Origin: a bacterium
Lineage (GTDB): Bacteria; Sysuimicrobiota; Sysuimicrobiia; Sysuimicrobiales; Segetimicrobiaceae
Length of the DNA: 56,401 nt
Assembly (NCBI GenBank): GCA_035308905.1
Contig: DATGFS010000029.1
Coordinates: 1-56,401 of the forward strand
Direction: 5' to 3'
The notes under the pieces were generated by a model. That model was not told the DNA's origin. It did not search any database and worked only from the letters and a program-made list of their open reading frames with translations. Position numbers and translations under genes: made by a program. Positions 16,551 through 24,693 of the stretch are shown here, piece after piece; position 1 is the first letter of the stretch, and the number at the start of each line of letters is the position of its first letter.

Positions 16551-16938
16551 TGCGGTTTCCCCCCGGATCCTTATCGGTCGCTATCGAGTGGGTTTAGGGT
16601 ACTCGAGCCTGTATCGTCAAGCGAGAGGAAGCCCACCCCTTTCATATGGGTGCCAGCATCTTTTGTGACCGAACTTTCACCTAACTGCTAGCGAGCTCAA
16701 TGGAATATCCTGGACAGCTTGGCAGGGCCGGCCTGGGTGTTTTAGTTAAGATTTCGAGATGTCATATAGCTTGGACGAACTTTGAATAGGCCATAAGTTG
16801 ATTTTGCCGATCAGCCGCAATTCAGCGAAATAATATCAACGAGTTTGCCTGAAATCATCTGGGAAGGGGCATCAAAGTTAACCGCGCCGGGACTTTCGAA
16901 ATCCTGTCGTGGCTCACAGTGGCAGCAGGGGGGAGATC
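16551..16938. other. divergent intergenic region, pilB-like gene / secreted-protein locus
   Basis: 388 bases without a gene, clearly more AT-rich than the coding flanks. It must hold promoters for both directions. On the minus strand a TTGACG near 16618 could be a -35, with TAAACC 18 bases on as a weak -10. On the plus strand I see no convincing -35/-10 pair and no recognised riboswitch. Confidence 0.5.
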
Positions 16939-17577
16939 ATGACCACCGACACGCGCGAGGACGAGGACTGTTCATGTTCTAAGGCGCTCCGTCTTTCCAA
17001 CGGAAATCTGGCGAGGGCCTGCACTCTGACTGTTGTTCTTCTTGCAATGGCGATCCGTATCGCCTTGCCGGTCCCTGCGCATGCCGCCACGAGCGGCAGC
17101 GGCAACGTGGTTATCACGGTGACCCCCGGCCAGTCCGTTGCGGTCACCGTCACCCCGGCAACGCTTAGCCTGTCCGAGGACGTTACGAGTCCGGGGACCG
17201 GATGGATGTTTGACGCCACGAACGCCGCCTGGATGCCAAACGCCTGGACCCACGGCACTTACTTCTACGGGGTCAGCGGGAGCGGCAATTGTCTCGCGAT
17301 CACCATCAGCACATCGCTGTCGAACTGGGGGTTAACCGCCTATTACGGGGTTAGCGGCGGTCTGACGTCGGGCAATACCAGCCTGGCGCTCGCGCCATCG
17401 ACCGCCGCCTGCGGCACTCCCACCAGCAGCCAGGTATTGAGCGCCAACAGCGGCGCTCAAACAACCCTCCAGACGAGTCAGAACGGTTCGCAGACGTTTT
17501 ACTACTACGTCGCGGTGCAGCCAACGATCGCAACCGCCGCGAACGCGACGATCACCATTACCTTCACGGCGCAGTAG
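16939..17577 (+). CDS. secreted surface protein with one two-cysteine repeat domain
   Basis: 212 residues. After about 30 polar residues comes a hydrophobic signal segment (LTVVLLAMAIRIALPVPAHAA), then one domain of about 150 residues rich in Ser, Thr, Gly, Ala and aromatic residues. Domain landmarks are SEDVTSPGTGW, a first Cys in GNCLAI, a second Cys in AACGTP, YYYVAVQP and the terminal TFTAQ. The same domain occurs twice in the next gene. The alternating hydrophobic pattern suggests a beta-sandwich. ATG 16939 is chosen because GGGGGAG lies five bases upstream; GTG 16909 is possible. No known family was recognised. The context suggests a surface fibre or S-layer-like subunit. Confidence 0.75.
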   Translation: MTTDTREDEDCSCSKALRLSNGNLARACTLTVVLLAMAIRIALPVPAHAATSGSGNVVITVTPGQSVAVTVTPATLSLSEDVTSPGTGWMFDATNAAWMPNAWTHGTYFYGVSGSGNCLAITISTSLSNWGLTAYYGVSGGLTSGNTSLALAPSTAACGTPTSSQVLSANSGAQTTLQTSQNGSQTFYYYVAVQPTIATAANATITITFTAQ

Positions 17578-17591
17578 CTGCCCGCAAGCTG

Positions 17592-18572
17592 ATGCGCCTT
17601 CCCCGGTTCTTCGCCGCGACGCTGCTGATCGCCGCGCTTGCGGTTCCGCTCGAACAGGGCGAGGCCGCCAATCCCACGATGGCGGTTTCGCCGGCGGCCA
17701 CGAGTTTCGCGGAGGACGTCAACAGTCCCGGCTCGGGCTGGACGTTTGGCACCGGCGCCGCGTGGTTCCCCGCCGTCTGGAGCGACAACGCCGCCTATAC
17801 GTACACGAGCTGTGTGCGGGTATCGGCGGCAAACGCCAACGGCAACTCCTCGTGGAGCGCCGAGTATACGACGAGCCCCTCCACCTCCCTACACGTGGGC
17901 CTCGCCGTCGCCGGTACGGCGTCCTGCGGCACGCCGGCAGCGGCCGGCACGGATATCGGCAACTCCAGTTTCACGACGCTGAATCAAACGGGCAACGCCA
18001 CTGCCTATTACTATGTCGTCGTGCAGCCCACAGTGGCGGTCTCCTCCACTGTGACCATTAGCCTCACGTTCAAAGTCCAAAGCACCGCCGCCACGTTGGC
18101 CATTACGATGAGCCCCGGCAACGCGATCGCCGTCACGATCACACCGTCGTCTGCAGGCCTCCTTGAGGACGTTACACTTTCGGCCGGCAACAACAGCGGC
18201 TGGGCGTTCGCCGCCGGCAAACCATGGATCCCAGGCACGACCTGGAACGACAACAGCGCGTATACCTACGGCACCGGCGCGGCCGGCTGTTTCACCGTCT
18301 CCGTCCGCACGTCGGTGCAAAACTGGAATCTATCGGCTTTCTACACCACGAGCCCGACGCCGTCCAAGCCGATCAACGTCGCGCTCGCTCAGGCAGGCAC
18401 GGGCAGCACCTGCAACGCTCCCGCCGCGGCAGGCACGGTCATCGGTTCGAGCCCCGCGACCGTGCTTGCGAATCAAGGCGGCACGCAGACCGTCGACTAC
18501 TACGTTGTCGTGCAGCCTGCACTGGCGGTCACCTCGAACGTGGCCGTCACGATGACGTTCACGGCCCAGTAA
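17592..18572 (+). CDS. secreted surface protein with two two-cysteine repeat domains
   Basis: 326 residues with a clear signal peptide (MRLPRFFAATLLIAALAVPLEQGEA). Two tandem copies of the domain seen in the preceding gene follow, at about residues 26-165 and 170-326. Each copy has an EDV...GW.F start, W.P..W with Y-T-Y, two Cys spaced about 50 residues apart, the block CGTPAAAGT.IG or CNAPAAAGTVIG, and a YYVVVQP strand, ending TFKVQ or TFTAQ. The conserved Cys pair probably forms a disulphide after export. It lies 14 bases after the first subunit gene and ten before the third gene. Function is inferred from context only. Confidence 0.78.
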   Translation: MRLPRFFAATLLIAALAVPLEQGEAANPTMAVSPAATSFAEDVNSPGSGWTFGTGAAWFPAVWSDNAAYTYTSCVRVSAANANGNSSWSAEYTTSPSTSLHVGLAVAGTASCGTPAAAGTDIGNSSFTTLNQTGNATAYYYVVVQPTVAVSSTVTISLTFKVQSTAATLAITMSPGNAIAVTITPSSAGLLEDVTLSAGNNSGWAFAAGKPWIPGTTWNDNSAYTYGTGAAGCFTVSVRTSVQNWNLSAFYTTSPTPSKPINVALAQAGTGSTCNAPAAAGTVIGSSPATVLANQGGTQTVDYYVVVQPALAVTSNVAVTMTFTAQ

Positions 18573-18582
18573 GACGGAGGCA

Positions 18583-19332
18583 ATGAAGATGAGCATGCCG
18601 CATCGTCTCATAGGGATAGCCGTCGTGATGGCCGCCCTCGCGGCGGCGCCGGGGCCGGTCCACGCGGCCGCCACGGTCCCGATTGCCAGCTTCGCCGCCA
18701 GTCCCCGGTTCCAAGCCGCCTCCGCCGCCAGCGGCGAGCCGGCCACCTTCCTGATCGACGTCCGAAACTTCAACGAACGTGCCCCGCTGCCGGTGAGTTT
18801 CGAGCTCGCCGACCTCGACGAACGGGGCTGGATTACGGCCCCGCATACGACGCCGTACAGTCTCGTCGGCTTGGCGACCCTGCCCGAACCCATGACCTTC
18901 GGTCCGGGTGAAACAAAGCGCGTGGCGGTTGTTGTCAAAAGCGATGGACGCACGCACTACGGCTCGGTGGTCGTCGTGGCGGGTCCCCCCGGCGCTCCGT
19001 TCGCGCGGATCGCGCTCAAGATCGTGATCACCGCTCCGGACGCCGCCGCGGAGCCGGACATCCAGGTCACCCCGGCGTCCTCCGGCACGATCAAGTTGGA
19101 TCTTCGCAACACCGGTGACGGGCTCTTGAGTCTGCGCGGCGTGATCTTCTTATTGTCGCCGGACAACCGCTTCCTGGGGCGCCTGGATGTTCCCCTGGTG
19201 GCGATACTGCCGCATGGGAGCGCGTCGATCACGCTCCAGTGGCCGGAGAAGTTGCCTTCGGGCACGATCGCCCGCACAGTACTTACGCAGGAAGGGAGAA
19301 AGCCATTCGTCGTAAACGCCACCGTACCATAG
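18583..19332 (+). CDS. exported chaperone-like or adaptor protein of the surface locus
   Basis: 249 residues with a signal peptide (LIGIAVVMAALAAAPGPVHA). The mature part looks like two immunoglobulin-like beta domains: GEPATFLIDVRNFNERAPLPVSFELAD...PGETKRVAVVV in the first, and GTIKLDLRNTGDGLLSLRG...LPHGSASITLQW in the second. This pattern recalls periplasmic pilus chaperones and the DUF916/WxL-associated proteins, but the match is only by eye. GGAGG ends two bases before ATG 18583 and eight before ATG 18589, so 18589 may be the true start. It follows the two subunit genes, which suits a subunit-handling role. Confidence 0.65.
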   Translation: MKMSMPHRLIGIAVVMAALAAAPGPVHAAATVPIASFAASPRFQAASAASGEPATFLIDVRNFNERAPLPVSFELADLDERGWITAPHTTPYSLVGLATLPEPMTFGPGETKRVAVVVKSDGRTHYGSVVVVAGPPGAPFARIALKIVITAPDAAAEPDIQVTPASSGTIKLDLRNTGDGLLSLRGVIFLLSPDNRFLGRLDVPLVAILPHGSASITLQWPEKLPSGTIARTVLTQEGRKPFVVNATVP

Positions 19333-20906
19333 CCGCGGTCATCGCGGTCCTCGGCGCGCTCCTGAGTCTTGTCCCCGCTCCCGCGGCCGCCCAGGACCAC
19401 GGCCCGTCGTCCCCGGGAGCTCTGCGGGTGCGGGTCGGAGAGCAGCTCGTCCTGCGCGCACCGGCGGGCATGATTCATGCCGAAGCCGCAGATCCGTCGA
19501 TCGCCGAGGTCACGATGCCGTCCTCCGACACCGTTCTCGTGCGGGGGATTCGCCCGGCCGATACGGTCTTGCTGCTTGTGAACAGCACGACCGCCGTCGC
19601 GCAGCCCCTCCGCGTCGCTCCGGCGTTGGCGATGTCCGGCACCGCGGCGGATGCGGCATCGCCGGTGGGATTCGTCGACCTCACCTACATTCCCGACGCA
19701 CATGCGTTCTGGGCGGACGTCCACCGCCCGGGTCTTGATGCGACGATCAGTGCAGGCGGCTGGCAGGTCCATCTCCTCAGCGGCGGGCTCACGGTCGTCG
19801 GGGCGAGCGCGCTGCAGACCCCGCTTCAGAATTTCGGCGTGGCGCCGGGCGCAGGCGCGAGCATTCGCACGCCCGACGGATGGGAGCTTATCGCGAGTAC
19901 AATGCAATCGCAGATCGTCCATCACTGGCCGCTCGGCGGGACTAATGAGGTGGCCCTCGCCGCCACGATGGCCGGACCACTCGCCACGCTGCACGTCGAG
20001 CGCGGCGGGGTGGCCGTGGACCTCGGGACCCTGTACGAGAACGGGGCGGCGCAGAGTGCGGGCGCGCTGACCGCGGCGATCGGGGCTGTTCTGGTGGCGT
20101 ACACGTTCGGGCCGCAGGGAACCAGCCTGTCTGCCGAGATCCCCTTGGGCGGGTGGACGATCAGCGCGGCTACCGGTTCACAGGGTTTACAGATCGGTTT
20201 TGGCGGATCGCTTGGTACCGGCAACCGCGCGACTGTTTGGACCGGCTCTGGAAGCTACGGGTTCGGCATGACCGTGCCGATAGGCGCCGGAGGTACGATG
20301 ACCATCGCCGCGAACCCAGGCGGCGTCTCCGCATTCGCCAGCACGGCGGAGAGTCCCGCCGCCGGGGTGACGACCACGACGGGGTTCGGCGCCGGCGCAC
20401 TCACGTTGACGAGTCCGCCTCATGACGTTCCGGTCTTGGCCTCCGCCGCGGCGTTTGGGGCCTCTCCGGCGACGCAGGCCGAAGCGCGCGCGCCGTCCCT
20501 TCTTGTTCCCTATCTGGCGCGGGCGAGGATTGAAATTCCAGCGGAGCCCGTCGCCGCGCTCGCCAGAGCACCTCGATCGCCCAACGGCTTCGCAGGGGAG
20601 CCCGTGTCGATTCCGTCCGGTTCAGCCGCGCTCATTCTCCATGTGTGTCTCCATAGTGCGAGCCCGAAGACCATCTGCGATCCGGCCGATCCTACGGTAA
20701 GCCTTCGTCTTTATGTGGATGATCGGCCAATCGAACCCTCCGGGGTCGCGCTGCCGATCGTCCCGGGACCGCATGCCGTTGCGATCCGTCCGGAGGACCT
20801 CCCGCAATTTCTGGTCCCGCTCGGCGCGTTGACCTGTCCCATCAACGCAACGGCGGGCGGCATCGTTGTGTGCGACTTTGCCTTCCGGCGCGCCGGGGCG
20901 CAATGA
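19239..20906 (+). CDS. exported protein with CpaC/RcpA-like N-terminal domain
   Basis: About 530-555 residues. A signal peptide (HRTIAAVIAVLGALLSLVPAPAAA) precedes a domain resembling the pilus-formation N-terminal domain of CpaC/RcpA secretins: VRVGEQLVLRAPAGMIHAEAADPSIAEVTM...VRGIRPADTVLLLV. The middle (about 170-410) is Gly- and Thr-rich with regular alternating strands and could be a beta-barrel or beta-helix. A C-terminal domain with three Cys ends the protein. No secretin domain is seen. GTG 19239 lacks a ribosome site, while an ATT at 19305 has AGGAAGG nine bases upstream and directly precedes the basic start of the signal peptide, so the true start may be the non-standard ATT. It overlaps the preceding gene. 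Confidence 0.68.
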   Translation: MAGEVAFGHDRPHSTYAGREKAIRRKRHRTIAAVIAVLGALLSLVPAPAAAQDHGPSSPGALRVRVGEQLVLRAPAGMIHAEAADPSIAEVTMPSSDTVLVRGIRPADTVLLLVNSTTAVAQPLRVAPALAMSGTAADAASPVGFVDLTYIPDAHAFWADVHRPGLDATISAGGWQVHLLSGGLTVVGASALQTPLQNFGVAPGAGASIRTPDGWELIASTMQSQIVHHWPLGGTNEVALAATMAGPLATLHVERGGVAVDLGTLYENGAAQSAGALTAAIGAVLVAYTFGPQGTSLSAEIPLGGWTISAATGSQGLQIGFGGSLGTGNRATVWTGSGSYGFGMTVPIGAGGTMTIAANPGGVSAFASTAESPAAGVTTTTGFGAGALTLTSPPHDVPVLASAAAFGASPATQAEARAPSLLVPYLARARIEIPAEPVAALARAPRSPNGFAGEPVSIPSGSAALILHVCLHSASPKTICDPADPTVSLRLYVDDRPIEPSGVALPIVPGPHAVAIRPEDLPQFLVPLGALTCPINATAGGIVVCDFAFRRAGAQ

Positions 20907-21041
20907 CACACCGCATCACGACGGTGGCAGCGACACTTCGAGGTCGATCGTTGGCGACACAACGAACTGTGCCGCTCGCGAGAGCGGTTAACCTCGTGCT
21001 CGTGGCGGGTACCGTATCAGACATCGGCGGCGGCGCCGGTG
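20903..21041 (+). pseudogene. truncated copy of the 5' end of the adaptor-LytM gene
   Basis: Bases 20924-21035 align without gaps to 22732-22843 at roughly four-fifths identity, in the same codon phase. It encodes LRGRSLATQRTVPLARAV and LVAGTVSDIGG against LRGRSPVTQRIAPLARAV and LVAGTLSGVGG of the complete gene. The ATG overlaps the preceding stop by four bases. Similarity ends before a tRNA gene and no body of the adaptor follows, so this is a broken duplicate that retains only the signal-peptide region. Confidence 0.7.
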
Positions 21042-21042
21042 A

Positions 21043-21078
21043 TTCGGGTTCCGCACGAACGGAGAGCGCTCCTTTGGC
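21043..21078. repeat. 36-base dispersed element, copy 2
   Basis: Matches 8034-8069 at 31 of 36 positions without gaps. It lies immediately upstream of the -10 of tRNA-Met, and its CTCCTTTGG segment occupies the spacer region of that promoter. Confidence 0.6.
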
Positions 21079-21081
21079 CTA

Positions 21082-21090
21082 TGCTATAAT
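21082..21090 (+). promoter_or_regulatory. extended -10 promoter of tRNA-Met
   Basis: TGCTATAAT is a perfect TGn-extended -10 element, placed 11 bases before the mature tRNA. No good -35 hexamer is seen 16-18 bases upstream. Confidence 0.75.
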
Positions 21091-21101
21091 GAGCGGTGCG
21101 C

Positions 21102-21178
21102 GGCGGCGTAGCTCAGGTGGTCAGAGCACGCGGTTCATACCCGCGGAGTCGGGGGTTCGAAGCCCTCCGCCGCCACCA
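21102..21178 (+). tRNA. tRNA-Met (CAT), elongator type
   Basis: Complete cloverleaf: acceptor 21102-21108 with 21168-21174, anticodon stem 21129-21133 with 21141-21145, anticodon CAT at 21136-21138, T-loop TTCGAAG and an encoded CCA at 21176-21178. The first pair is G-C and the anticodon stem lacks the GGG/CCC of initiator tRNA, so it is elongator Met. A lysidine-modified Ile(CAT) tRNA cannot be excluded by eye. Confidence 0.93.
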
Positions 21179-21208
21179 CCAGTCTCCCTGTCGTGCACCG
21201 TCGCGCTG

Positions 21209-22192
21209 TCACAGTTCGACCGGCCTCGCCGTCCGCATGGAGGTGAGCAGCGCCGTGATGACGCGCAGCGTGCCCACGGCGTCGTCGGGAGAATAGGGCA
21301 CGCCGGTGTCTTGAAGGACGGCGTCGGCGAATCGCTCTGCCATAACCTGATACTGGTTGACGCCCGGCACGGTGAGCACCGTGCGCTCCGCTCCTCGTAT
21401 GAGGTGGATCTCCGCATCGCCGGTCCCGGGGAGAAAGGCCTTCGGGACGGCGAGCCGTCCCTCCGTGCCGATGATGTCATACTCCTCACGCCGGGGCATC
21501 GTGAGGCCGCAGTCCAGCAGCGCCAGGCGGCCGGAGCCGAACGCCAGCACCGCGCCGACGAGTTCGTCGACCCCGGTCTCCCCGACGTACCCTTGAGCGA
21601 ATACCTGCTCAGGTTCTCCCAGGAGCATCCGGGTCACGTTTACGGCGTAACACCCGACATCGTAGAGCGAGCCGCCGCCCAACGCCGGGTTGAACCGAAT
21701 GTTCCGGCTTGGGTCCCGGGCCGGAAACGTGAACGATGCGCGCAGGAGTTTGAGGTCGCCCACCACGCCGCGGGCGACCATCTCGACGACCCGTTCTGTT
21801 CGCGGGTGGAACCGGTACATGAAGGCTTCCATGAGTTTCACGCCGGCCCGCGCGCACGCCGCGACCATCTCCCGGGCGTGCTCCGGCGACGTGGTCAGGG
21901 GCTTCTCGCACAAGACGTGCTTCCCGGCCGCCGCGCACCGCAGCACCCAATCGTGATGCAGCGCATTCGGCAATGGGACATACACGGCCTGGACCTCGTG
22001 ATCGTCCAGCAACGCCGCGTACGAGCCGTAGGCCCGCGCGATGCCGAGACGTTGTGCGGCCTCGTCCGCTCTGGCCGCGTCCCGGCTTGCAATCGCAACG
22101 ATGCGTCCGTTGCGAGACTGCTGGATCGCCGGGAGCACGACGCGCATGCCGATGTTGGCCACACCGAGGACTCCCCAACGGACGCGGTCCAT
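21209..22192 (-). CDS. Gfo/Idh/MocA family oxidoreductase
   Basis: NAD(P)-dependent dehydrogenase of 327 residues, probably acting on a sugar or cyclitol. The N-terminal Rossmann fold starts WGVLGVANIGMRVVLPAIQQ (residues 6-25), with the nucleotide-specific SRDAARADEAA. The catalytic-domain signature CEKPLTT has the conserved Lys near residue 96, and GGSLYDVGCYAVN contains the Asp-x3-Tyr active-site segment. It is convergent with tRNA-Met and stands alone in the stretch bounded by the two copies of the adaptor 5' end. Substrate is not determinable. Confidence 0.9.
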   Translation of the reverse strand: MDRVRWGVLGVANIGMRVVLPAIQQSRNGRIVAIASRDAARADEAAQRLGIARAYGSYAALLDDHEVQAVYVPLPNALHHDWVLRCAAAGKHVLCEKPLTTSPEHAREMVAACARAGVKLMEAFMYRFHPRTERVVEMVARGVVGDLKLLRASFTFPARDPSRNIRFNPALGGGSLYDVGCYAVNVTRMLLGEPEQVFAQGYVGETGVDELVGAVLAFGSGRLALLDCGLTMPRREEYDIIGTEGRLAVPKAFLPGTGDAEIHLIRGAERTVLTVPGVNQYQVMAERFADAVLQDTGVPYSPDDAVGTLRVITALLTSMRTARPVEL

Positions 22193-22238
22193 TCGTGCGC
22201 TTCAACCTCTCCCGCGCTCCCGGAGGGGCGCCCGCCGC

Positions 22239-22466
22239 TTACGCTGTGAACAGCGCGTAATACCCGATTCCGAGCACCACGACCACCGAGACCAGCACCA
22301 GGACGACGACCGTCGTCGGGTCCATCACCGGAAGCGGCAGGCGCGCGTGGATCAGTTGCTGCAACGGCATCGTCACCGCGCCGGCCGCGCGCGACAGAGC
22401 GTCCCCCAGTCCCTGGACCGAACTGGTCAGCGAACCGGCGTTGACGGAGTTCAGGACATATTCCAT
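22239..22466 (-). CDS. small single-pass membrane protein
   Basis: 75 residues, unrecognised. Residues 1-45 are amphipathic (GSLTSSVQGLGDALSRAAGAVTMPLQQLI) and residues about 50-72 form one long hydrophobic helix (TTVVVLVLVSVVVVLGIGYYALF) at the C-terminus, as in tail-anchored proteins. The ATG at 22466 has GGAGG six bases upstream. It is transcribed towards the oxidoreductase gene, 46 bases away. Confidence 0.7.
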   Translation of the reverse strand: MEYVLNSVNAGSLTSSVQGLGDALSRAAGAVTMPLQQLIHARLPLPVMDPTTVVVLVLVSVVVVLGIGYYALFTA

Positions 22467-22570
22467 GGCGGACCTCCGTTCAGCATGCCTTCGGGGGTTT
22501 CCTCTGGAGCAGGTGGAACCGGGCGCGGCGCCGCGCATGTCGTCGATCACCCAGTTCCGACCGTCGGGAA

Positions 22571-22599
22571 TTGCGCGTGAGGCCGGCAGGGGCTACACT
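22571..22599 (+). promoter_or_regulatory. candidate sigma-70-type promoter for the adaptor-LytM gene
   Basis: TTGCGC (22571-22576), a 17-base spacer and TACACT (22594-22599). A small hairpin (22659-22664 with 22773-equivalent arm 22673-22678) lies in the leader, about 50 bases before the start. Confidence 0.5.
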
Positions 22600-22725
22600 G
22601 AAGCCACGACGGCTTTGGACACTCGCAGGGATGGGAGAGGCCGCTACCACGACTTTTCGATCTCTTCATCATGAGATCTCATTCACACGGGAAGAATATG
22701 GGAACAGCCGCGTGACCCGCCCACG

Positions 22726-24693
22726 TTGTACGCGGTAGCGTCATTACGAGGTCGATCGCCGGTGACACAACGGATTGCGCCGCTCGCGAGAGCGGTCATT
22801 GTCGCACTCGTGGCGGGCACCTTGTCCGGCGTCGGAGGAAGCGCGCCCGGCGCGGTCATGCTGCCTGCCGCGGGGACACCCGCCGCGCCGGCGGTCCCCG
22901 GCCAACCCTGGCAGACACCCACAGTCCTCGTTCCGATTGGAGCCCAGGTCGCCGGCTCCGTGCTCAAGGTCGATGTCGACGACCGCCGCTACGTCACCGC
23001 CGGCACGGTGCTGATCGAATTGGACCCGAGCCGCTACCGGACCGCGCTCGCACAGGCGCGCGCCCGCGCGGCGGCGCTGACGGCGCAGGTCAACGCCGCC
23101 CAGGCCAGGCTTGCCGCGGGGCGGCATCAGGCCGCCGCCGGCGTCACCGCCGCGGTCGGCAGCGCGTCCACGATGCCGCCGCTGCCTTCTCTGCCGCCAA
23201 TCGCCGTCCCGAAGGTCGACGCGGCGACCAAGGCGCAGCTCGCACAGGTCCAGCAGCAGATCGTGGCCGCCCGGACCGAGGTGTTGAGCGACGCGCAGTC
23301 CGAGGCGGCGTCCGCGCGCCAGACCGTTGATCGCGACCAGGCGCTGCTTGCGCAGGGCCTGATCGCCGCGCAGCAGCTCAATGCCGATACGGCCGCGTAC
23401 ACCGCGGCGCAGGGACAGGTCTCCGCCGCACGCACCGAGCTTCGGAGCGCGCAGGCGGGTGCGCTGCGGGCGGCCGAAACCGTCGCGCAGGCTCAGGCCG
23501 CGATCGCGGCGGCGCAGCGCCGCGTAAGCGCCGCGCAGGACGATGCCGCGGCCGCGACGACCGCGGTCGATCGCGACAAGGCGCTGGTGGCGCAGGGAGC
23601 GGTGGCCGTGCGGCAGATCACCGCCGATACCGTGACGCAGGACGCGGCGCAGGCGCGCCTCCAGGCGGCGACCGCCGAGCTCCACCGCGCGCAGGCCGAA
23701 CTGACGGCGGCGCAGGCCGAGGCCGTCGCCGCGGCCGCCGTCCGCCGGCAGGCGCAGATCCTCCAACAGGCCGGGGCGGTACGCGCGCGGCATGCCGCGC
23801 AGACGCGGGTGTTGGCGCAGCAGGCCGCCTCCACGATCGTGACCGCCGCGGAGGGCGCGCGCGCTCTCGCGGCGCTTCAGACGGACGCCGTCAACGCGCA
23901 GACCGCCGCCCGGCGCGCCGAGGCGAATCTCGCCGAAACGGTCGTGCGCGCCCCGGCCGGCGGATGGGTGGTGCCGCCGGTCGTGCGGCCGGGCGACTCC
24001 GTCCGGCAGGGGCAATCGGTGGCGATGCTGGCCGTCGACGCGCAGCGTCAGACCGGTACGGCCGCCGCCGCGCCCGCGGGGGCCACGCCCGGCGCGTCGC
24101 AGCCTCGTGCCGGTCCGGCTCAACTCGCCCAGATCGCCGCGGGCGAACGGCAGGTCCTCGCGGAGCTCAACGCGGAAGCGGCGCGCATCTCGTCGATCAG
24201 CGCGACCGCCATCCCCGAGATCCCGCCCCGCCCGGGCGTCGTCCTGTACGGGCTACCGAACGGAGGAGCCGAACCGTTCAATCAGGCGAACGGCACCGTG
24301 CCGACGCTGCTCAACGGCGGAATGCCGTGGCCGATTCTCGGTCCCATCACGTCCGGCTTCGGATGGCGGGTTCATCCGATCTTCGATACGCCGGAGTTTC
24401 ACACGGGCGTGGATATCGCGGCCTCGATGGGCGCGGTGATCGACGCGCCGGCCGCCGGCACCGTGATCTTCGCTGGCTCGCTGCCGGCCAACGGGACGCT
24501 CGTGATCCTGGACCACGGCAACGGAGTCACGACTACGTACTCGCACCTGTCGGTGTATCGCGTGTACGTCGGCGAACACGTGCAGCGCGGCCAGGTCATT
24601 GCCCAGGTCGGCAGCACGGGATGGAGCACCGGTCCGCACCTGTTCTTCGAGATCCGCAAGAACGGGCACCCGATCAATCCCCTGAGCTTGTAG
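22726..24693 (+). CDS. membrane-fusion-type coiled-coil adaptor fused to a degenerate LytM (M23) domain
   Basis: 655 residues. After a signal-like segment (PLARAVIVALVAGTLSG) comes a HlyD/biotinyl-lipoyl-like half motif (VPIGAQVAGSVLKVDVDDRRYVTAG). A long Ala/Gln-rich coiled coil follows (about 110-400), then the second half motif (RAPAGGWVVPPVVRPGDSV). The C-terminus (about 535-655) is an M23 LytM fold: GFGWRVHP, H559 and D563 of HxxxD, and H607 in SHLS. The last motif reads HLFFE instead of HLHFE, so one zinc ligand (residue 640) is Phe and the domain is probably inactive. EnvC and NlpD are known degenerate LytM amidase activators. TTG 22726 keeps the frame conserved with the truncated copy; GTG 22762 is an alternative. 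Confidence 0.8.
   Translation: MYAVASLRGRSPVTQRIAPLARAVIVALVAGTLSGVGGSAPGAVMLPAAGTPAAPAVPGQPWQTPTVLVPIGAQVAGSVLKVDVDDRRYVTAGTVLIELDPSRYRTALAQARARAAALTAQVNAAQARLAAGRHQAAAGVTAAVGSASTMPPLPSLPPIAVPKVDAATKAQLAQVQQQIVAARTEVLSDAQSEAASARQTVDRDQALLAQGLIAAQQLNADTAAYTAAQGQVSAARTELRSAQAGALRAAETVAQAQAAIAAAQRRVSAAQDDAAAATTAVDRDKALVAQGAVAVRQITADTVTQDAAQARLQAATAELHRAQAELTAAQAEAVAAAAVRRQAQILQQAGAVRARHAAQTRVLAQQAASTIVTAAEGARALAALQTDAVNAQTAARRAEANLAETVVRAPAGGWVVPPVVRPGDSVRQGQSVAMLAVDAQRQTGTAAAAPAGATPGASQPRAGPAQLAQIAAGERQVLAELNAEAARISSISATAIPEIPPRPGVVLYGLPNGGAEPFNQANGTVPTLLNGGMPWPILGPITSGFGWRVHPIFDTPEFHTGVDIAASMGAVIDAPAAGTVIFAGSLPANGTLVILDHGNGVTTTYSHLSVYRVYVGEHVQRGQVIAQVGSTGWSTGPHLFFEIRKNGHPINPLSL

Follow-up and report, generated by a model that had tools for sequence, protein, structure and literature searches.

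A cluster of four genes, here called P1 to P4, was analyzed in a 56,401-nucleotide stretch of DNA (the window, meaning the whole stretch; contig DATGFS010000029.1 of assembly GCA_035308905.1) from a bacterium of the phylum Sysuimicrobiota. The cluster encodes two small secreted subunits, a chaperone-type protein and a larger exported protein. The order subunit, subunit, immunoglobulin (Ig)-like chaperone, outer component is a real recurring design among bacteria, and the window holds a divergent member of it. The source genome (4.0 Mb, 97 % complete) was compared with a phylum set of 43 genomes from one order and with a wider genome collection. R1 to R3 denote the three copies of a repeat in P1 and P2, and codes beginning with L and G denote compared loci and genomes, respectively. 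Positions are collected in Table 1.

Table 1. Genes, repeats and domains of the P1-P4 cluster and related features in compared loci
Feature	Sequence	Positions	Strand	Description
P1	Window	16939..17577	+	Secreted single-domain subunit, 212 aa, with one repeat copy (R1)
Repeat R1	Window (P1)	17104..17574	+	157 aa, Cys118/Cys158, ends TFTAQ
P2	Window	17592..18572	+	Secreted subunit of two domains, 326 aa, R2 followed by R3
Repeat R2	Window (P2)	17673..18086	+	Cys74/Cys112, no N-terminal extra strand, ends TFKVQ
Repeat R3	Window (P2)	18096..18569	+	Cys233/Cys274, strand ATLAITMSPG right after R2, ends TFTAQ
P3	Window	18583..19332	+	Chaperone-type, 249 aa, signal peptide and two Ig-like beta-sandwich domains
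P4	Window	19239..20906	+	Exported, 555 aa, in the slot of the outer component
T2SS-T3SS_pil_N domain (PF13629)	Window (P4)	19416..19607	+	As in CpaC secretins; E 2.7e-6 (above cut-off) and 4.6e-7 in two scans
Extra block	Window	16551..22725	.	About 6.2 kb between PilB and LytM genes, absent in sibling species (L135)
Usher homologue	L093	5487-8489		1000 residues, Cu_amine_oxidN1 N-domain, two C-terminal SdrD_B domains
P3-like gene with true secretins directly after	L036	1395-4907		Two secretins
P3-like gene with true secretin directly after	L047	5662-8113		One secretin
P4 homologue of G033	L009	57-1214		Stops behind the strand-rich region; the Cys-bearing C-terminal domain is missing

All four reading frames are intact and the operon spacing is compact. 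P1 starts at an ATG behind GGGGGGAG, and the frame of P4 opens at its earliest possible start, a GTG, overlapping the 3' end of P3. A secretion-type signal sequence, as judged by eye, is located at the N-terminus of each of the four proteins.

P1 and P2 are composed of copies of one domain of 143-157 residues with a mutual identity of 37-48 %. Pairwise BLASTP E-values range from 2.6e-23 to 7.8e-31, and the scores lie 22-28 standard deviations (SD) above those of shuffled sequences. Every copy contains a Cys pair with a spacing of 38-41 residues, an EDV..GW start and a YYYV.VQP strand (DYYVVVQP in R3). This three-copy, Cys-paired domain had been described in the first-pass annotation, which was made from the DNA letters alone, and the description holds except for its TFTAQ end, which is present in R1 and R3 only. 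The TFTAQ segment is beta-strand-like and forms the C-terminus of both P1 and P2, the TFKVQ of R2 being internal; such shared ends are expected if a partner protein reads the subunit C-terminus. The copies differ also at the other end. An extra first strand with an alternating pattern is present in R1 (NVVITVTPG) and R3 and missing from R2. When P1, P2 and P3 were searched against Pfam and NCBIfam, nothing significant was found, and P1 and P2 matched no known pilin.

P3 contains no Cys and no C-terminal membrane helix. Its AlphaFold2 model, calculated from an alignment of 26 family members, has a mean predicted local distance difference test (pLDDT) of 90.4 and shows two beta-sandwich domains. 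In the PDB, the top Foldseek match of this model was 9i25_C (E 2.7e-10), the Enterococcus faecium WxLIP in complex with WxL, and 9i1y was also matched. The next matches included, among other Ig-like proteins, CfaA, EcpB, PapD and CsuC (E 7e-8 to 7e-7), as well as YadV, SafB and Caf1M. These pilus-chaperone matches span both domains of P3, with template modelling (TM) scores on the target of up to 0.58, and the model and its matches bear out the Ig-like chaperone type that had been proposed for P3. The WxLIP_PGBD model of Pfam recognizes 7 of the 26 family members (best 1.3e-7), P3 not being one of them. By profile, the soluble members from diderm hosts align to EcpB at 31.7 %, whereas the FimC-type chaperones of E. 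coli align to EcpB at only 1.5 %, neither value being significant alone. The final strand of the first domain, ARIALKIVIT (residues 141-150), carries Ile, Leu, Ile and Ile on one face. Such a one-sided aliphatic face is what a donor strand should have, and this strand is the candidate G1 donor strand of P3.

Homologues of P3 were found by profile search in 8 other genomes of the phylum. P3 itself aligns with the family built without it at an hhalign probability of 94.9 % (E 4.2e-8, 192 columns). One same-phylum match, L004, was taken as a chance hit because its neighbours are unrelated housekeeping genes; the genuine family member of that genome is located on a different contig. A scan of a named genome collection yielded 25 loci, 7 of them close (mostly metagenome-assembled genomes labelled ANGP1 or 'Armatimonadetes') and 18 more distant, from bacteria of the candidate phyla radiation (CPR), Actinomycetota, Aerophobetes, Spirochaetales and unassigned bacteria. 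A membrane helix and a tail are present at the C-terminus of the CPR and Actinomycetota members and in none of the diderm members seen, P3 included. In L035 and L038-L052, mostly from CPR bacteria including Nomurabacteria, Saccharibacteria and Doudnabacteria, repeated operons with secreted subunits around a membrane-anchored WxLIP-like protein were observed. Plasmids searched by tblastn with P2, P3 and P4, and viral contigs scanned with P3 and the repeats, gave no match; sequence searches of the PDB with P2, P3 and the outer proteins of the relatives gave nothing useful.

The genes around the P3 homologues reveal the recurring order. In the same-phylum loci, one or two secreted, Cys-paired subunits of about 150-165 residues stand before the P3 homologue, and an exported protein of about 800 residues, composed of a Cu_amine_oxidN1 domain, a long strand-rich, barrel-like region and two SdrD_B domains, stands after it (in G022 this final gene of the operon reads in two frames). 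The full-length protein occurs in exactly the 8 of 42 genomes that have the P3 family (Fisher p 8.5e-9, which overstates the significance because related genomes are not independent); in the remaining genomes of the phylum only the Cu_amine_oxidN1 N-domain or short pieces of it match. In two genomes of the phylum, a type IV pilin gene (L023, 5423-5875; L025, 9335-9784) adjoins the gene for the subunit in the usher-like operon.

In the Aerophobota locus L093, two subunits and a P3-like protein are followed by a protein with the same three-part architecture. This protein and the E. coli usher YraJ can be aligned over 328 columns (BLASTP E 2e-4; Smith-Waterman score 13 SD above shuffles), including the part from a GDS..FRG.QL strand through the usher plug to a VP..L.R.G..R.S...G stretch, although the usher models of Pfam do not recognize the L093 protein. 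Its hhalign value from a FimD-type profile is only 1.8 %, but EcpC, an accepted alternative usher, scores as low (3.7 %), and the low value is therefore no evidence against homology here. A different third gene is found in the Spirochaetales locus L047, where two subunits (DUF4114 in the second) and a P3-like protein precede a secretin (PF00263, 1.3e-23), and in L036 of Aerophobetes, where two secretins (5.4e-42 and 4e-30) come after the P3-like gene. The second L036 secretin bears a C-terminal extension with barrel-like strands. In other Spirochaetes, the P3-like gene comes after small secreted proteins and before FlgD/type-IX-tail proteins and, in some cases, small barrel-like proteins. In E. 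coli, fimA-fimI-fimC-fimD shows the same order of subunit, subunit, chaperone and outer component. The recurrence of this order with usher-like or secretin third genes indicates a recurrent design in which the third part is exchangeable, and the presence of such a third gene in several diderm relatives implies export across the outer membrane. The resemblance to chaperone-usher gene order pointed out in the first-pass annotation, and the search for this order in other genomes that it had suggested, have thus both been fruitful: the order was found around P3 homologues in the phylum, Aerophobota and Spirochaetales, with counterparts of P1, P2 and P4 that show no detectable homology to those of the window. 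The subunits of the relatives are partly interlinked by profile (same phylum to Actinomycetota, 96.5 %).

In P4, the signal peptide and the pil_N domain are followed by a Gly-rich, low-charge, beta-strand-like middle and a C-terminal part with four Cys. The CpaC-like N-terminus without a secretin domain, noticed in the first reading, was confirmed: pil_N was detected, PF00263 is absent, and a secretin identity of P4 was rejected. The only homologue in the phylum set (31 %) comes from a genome of the same family, G033, in which it lies at the end of a contig as the first gene on its strand, divergent from an mdoG/mdoH-like glucan-biosynthesis pair. Elsewhere in the window genome, on contig C1, a second pil_N protein without a secretin domain was observed (L059, 3154-4380), its C-terminal part unlike that of P4. 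The same genome encodes two PF00263 secretins in Tad-type and PilMNOPQ-type loci, which makes an outer membrane very likely. P4 shares no homology with the other pores; from its position, we infer that it is the outer-membrane part of the system.

The cluster is located within a block of about 6.2 kb that also contains a copy of a LytM-gene fragment, genes for a tRNA-Met and an oxidoreductase, and one small gene. In L135, from a sibling species in the genus, the PilB and LytM genes that flank this block are divergent neighbours about 230 bp apart, and P1-P4 are absent. PilB and LytM, which the first-pass annotation had associated with the locus, are therefore older neighbours rather than parts of it and were removed from the cluster; P1-P4 were either gained in the window genome or lost in the sibling. 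Directly behind P4, a 111-bp copy (20926-21036) of the 5' end of the adaptor-LytM gene (22734-22844) was observed with 77 % identity, followed by the tRNA-Met at 21102-21178. The LytM-fragment copy is possibly a scar of the rearrangement that put P1-P4 there. Of the three genomes in the genus, one has the locus, and the remainder of the family lacks it.

Taken together, P1-P4 are somewhat more probably than otherwise a divergent system with which a diderm host assembles a surface fibre or a surface coat in a chaperone-dependent way. P1 and P2 would be exported across the inner membrane as subunits whose beta-sandwich is incomplete. P3, which is of the WxLIP or alternative-pilus-chaperone type and would be soluble in the periplasm, would donate a strand, for which ARIALKIVIT is the candidate, to complete P1 and P2 and keep them soluble. 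P4 might then use its pil_N domain to receive the complexes at the outer membrane, and would pass or anchor the subunits at the surface. There, the N-terminal strand of a subunit (in R1 or R3) would displace the chaperone strand in the next one. Inside P2, the strand of R3 could complete R2. Since the first domain of P2, R2, has no N-terminal strand, P2 may be the tip or initiator and P1 the repeating unit; these roles, the donation and exchange of strands and the formation of any fibre are inferred here from repeats, predicted fold and gene order. Two published models are comparable. WxL and WxLIP have been described in Gram-positives, and in their model the WxL sandwich has a gap that is filled by a strand of WxLIP lying parallel to one of WxL (PMC10599100). 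This is the same principle as the donor-strand complementation of chaperone-usher pili (PMC4654587).

Several results weigh against this reading. The complete locus is known from one genome only, and no other genome of the phylum set has relatives of P1 and P2. Co-conservation of the four genes, whose absence the first-pass annotation had named as speaking against its fibre or secretion reading, was not found: P1 and P2 occur in one genome of the phylum, P4 has its single homologue, and only P3 has a wide family; the chaperone type and the gene order are the parts of that reading that stood. The P4 homologue in G033 is not accompanied by subunit genes on its sequenced side. In profile comparison, no homology was detectable between the window repeats and the subunits of the relatives. 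Foldseek, which had been proposed for all the proteins and gave clear matches for P3, found no match below 1e-3 for the repeat model, a low-confidence beta-sandwich (mean pLDDT 60.3) that was set aside for both reasons. P3 matches neither the PapD chaperone model nor the WxLIP model of Pfam. As for P4, it lacks homology to the usher-like proteins of the phylum (hhalign 0.5 %) and any usher match (Z -0.7 to 1.8 against six E. coli ushers), and pil_N is the only part that it has in common with secretins. Its middle region was no more barrel-like than soluble P2 in a home-made amphipathic-strand test, which was not discriminating.

These results on P4 bear on the possibility that it is not the export platform, and that P1-P3 use an outer-membrane protein encoded elsewhere or the Tad CpaC-type or PilQ-type secretin of the genome. 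No known pore shows homology to P4, P3-like genes in Aerophobota and Spirochaetales have secretins next to them, and the two secretins of the window genome could in principle serve. Nevertheless, the P4 frame overlaps P3, bears a secretin-type pil_N domain and occupies the third slot, and elsewhere the genome has only Cu_amine_oxidN1 domains and no full-length usher-like protein of the type found in the phylum; a separate platform is considered rather unlikely. It is conceivable, at a tentative level, that a WxLIP-type chaperone here works with a non-usher outer-membrane platform in a pilus-like route, the platform being a pil_N protein without a secretin domain in the window and a true secretin in Spirochaetales and Aerophobota. 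If so, one old chaperone-subunit module has been combined with several outer-membrane pores that are unrelated to each other.

A WxL-like coat of a diderm, with no fibre, would explain the structural results on P3 differently. P1 and P2 would form the coat, P3 would stabilize or anchor it, and P4 would be only an envelope anchor, with no usher-like translocation. Here belong the WxLIP as best structural match of P3, the WxLIP_PGBD matches among its relatives, the many relatives in monoderm CPR bacteria and Actinomycetota that stand beside secreted subunits and end in a membrane helix, and the W-x-L found once each, in the same strand, in R1 (SNWGLT) and R3 (QNWNLS) and not in R2. P3, however, has no membrane helix, P1 and P2 match no WxL model of Pfam, and several diderm relatives have a third gene of the usher-like or secretin kind; such a coat is considered unlikely. 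Very improbable is a decaying or orphan accessory cluster, recently acquired and without function in its host. The narrow distribution in the genus and family, and the position in a block that is missing in the sibling and contains a LytM-fragment duplicate and a tRNA, would agree with it; the four intact frames, the compact operon spacing and the three diverged repeats that keep their motifs would not.

The assembly system preferred here can be compared with three known systems. With the WxL/WxLIP (DUF916-DUF3324) clusters it shares the fold of P3 and an operon of two small secreted proteins with a two-domain Ig partner. It differs from them in the Cys pair and the missing dual WxL motif of P1 and P2, in a P3 with neither C-terminal membrane helix nor WxLIP_PGBD match, in the additional envelope-type fourth gene and in the diderm host. 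CpaC and other T2SS-T3SS secretins share pil_N with P4, and true secretins fill the same slot in Spirochaetales and Aerophobota, whereas P4 lacks the secretin domain and has another middle and C-terminal region. The locus is therefore not filed as a secretin system; nor is it filed as a WxL cluster, because it has no WxL domains and no anchored WxLIP, or as chaperone-usher, because no usher was found in the cluster. The usher-like protein of the phylum resembles P4 in its slot after the P3 homologue, an N-terminal periplasmic-type domain, a strand-rich middle and C-terminal domains, though not in sequence.

A further parallel is with chaperone-usher pili of the alternative and archaic classes (EcpABC, CfaABC, CsuABCD). 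The gene order is the same, the fold of P3 matches CfaA, EcpB and CsuC across both domains, and the homologous Aerophobota locus bears an usher homologue; unlike these pili, the window has no PapD match in P3, no usher (PF00577-type) in P4 and no pilin match in P1 or P2. Classical and alternate chaperone-usher systems have been reported in proteobacteria, and archaic ones in proteobacteria, Cyanobacteria and Deinococcus-Thermus (PMC4654587, published in 2015); L093 represents an usher lineage outside these phyla. The P3 family appears to join the WxL/WxLIP and chaperone-usher systems, being anchored in monoderms (CPR, Actinomycetota) and soluble in diderms (this phylum, Aerophobota, Spirochaetes), where it stands beside usher-like proteins, secretins or a third protein of the P4 type. 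If this is right, it bears on the origin of chaperone-usher pili and adds candidates for surface fibres in uncultured phyla that were missed by the Pfam and NCBIfam models scanned. Something newer is possible if P4 proves to be a pore; most likely, the locus works like a chaperone-usher system, with a chaperone related to those of both chaperone-usher and WxL systems.

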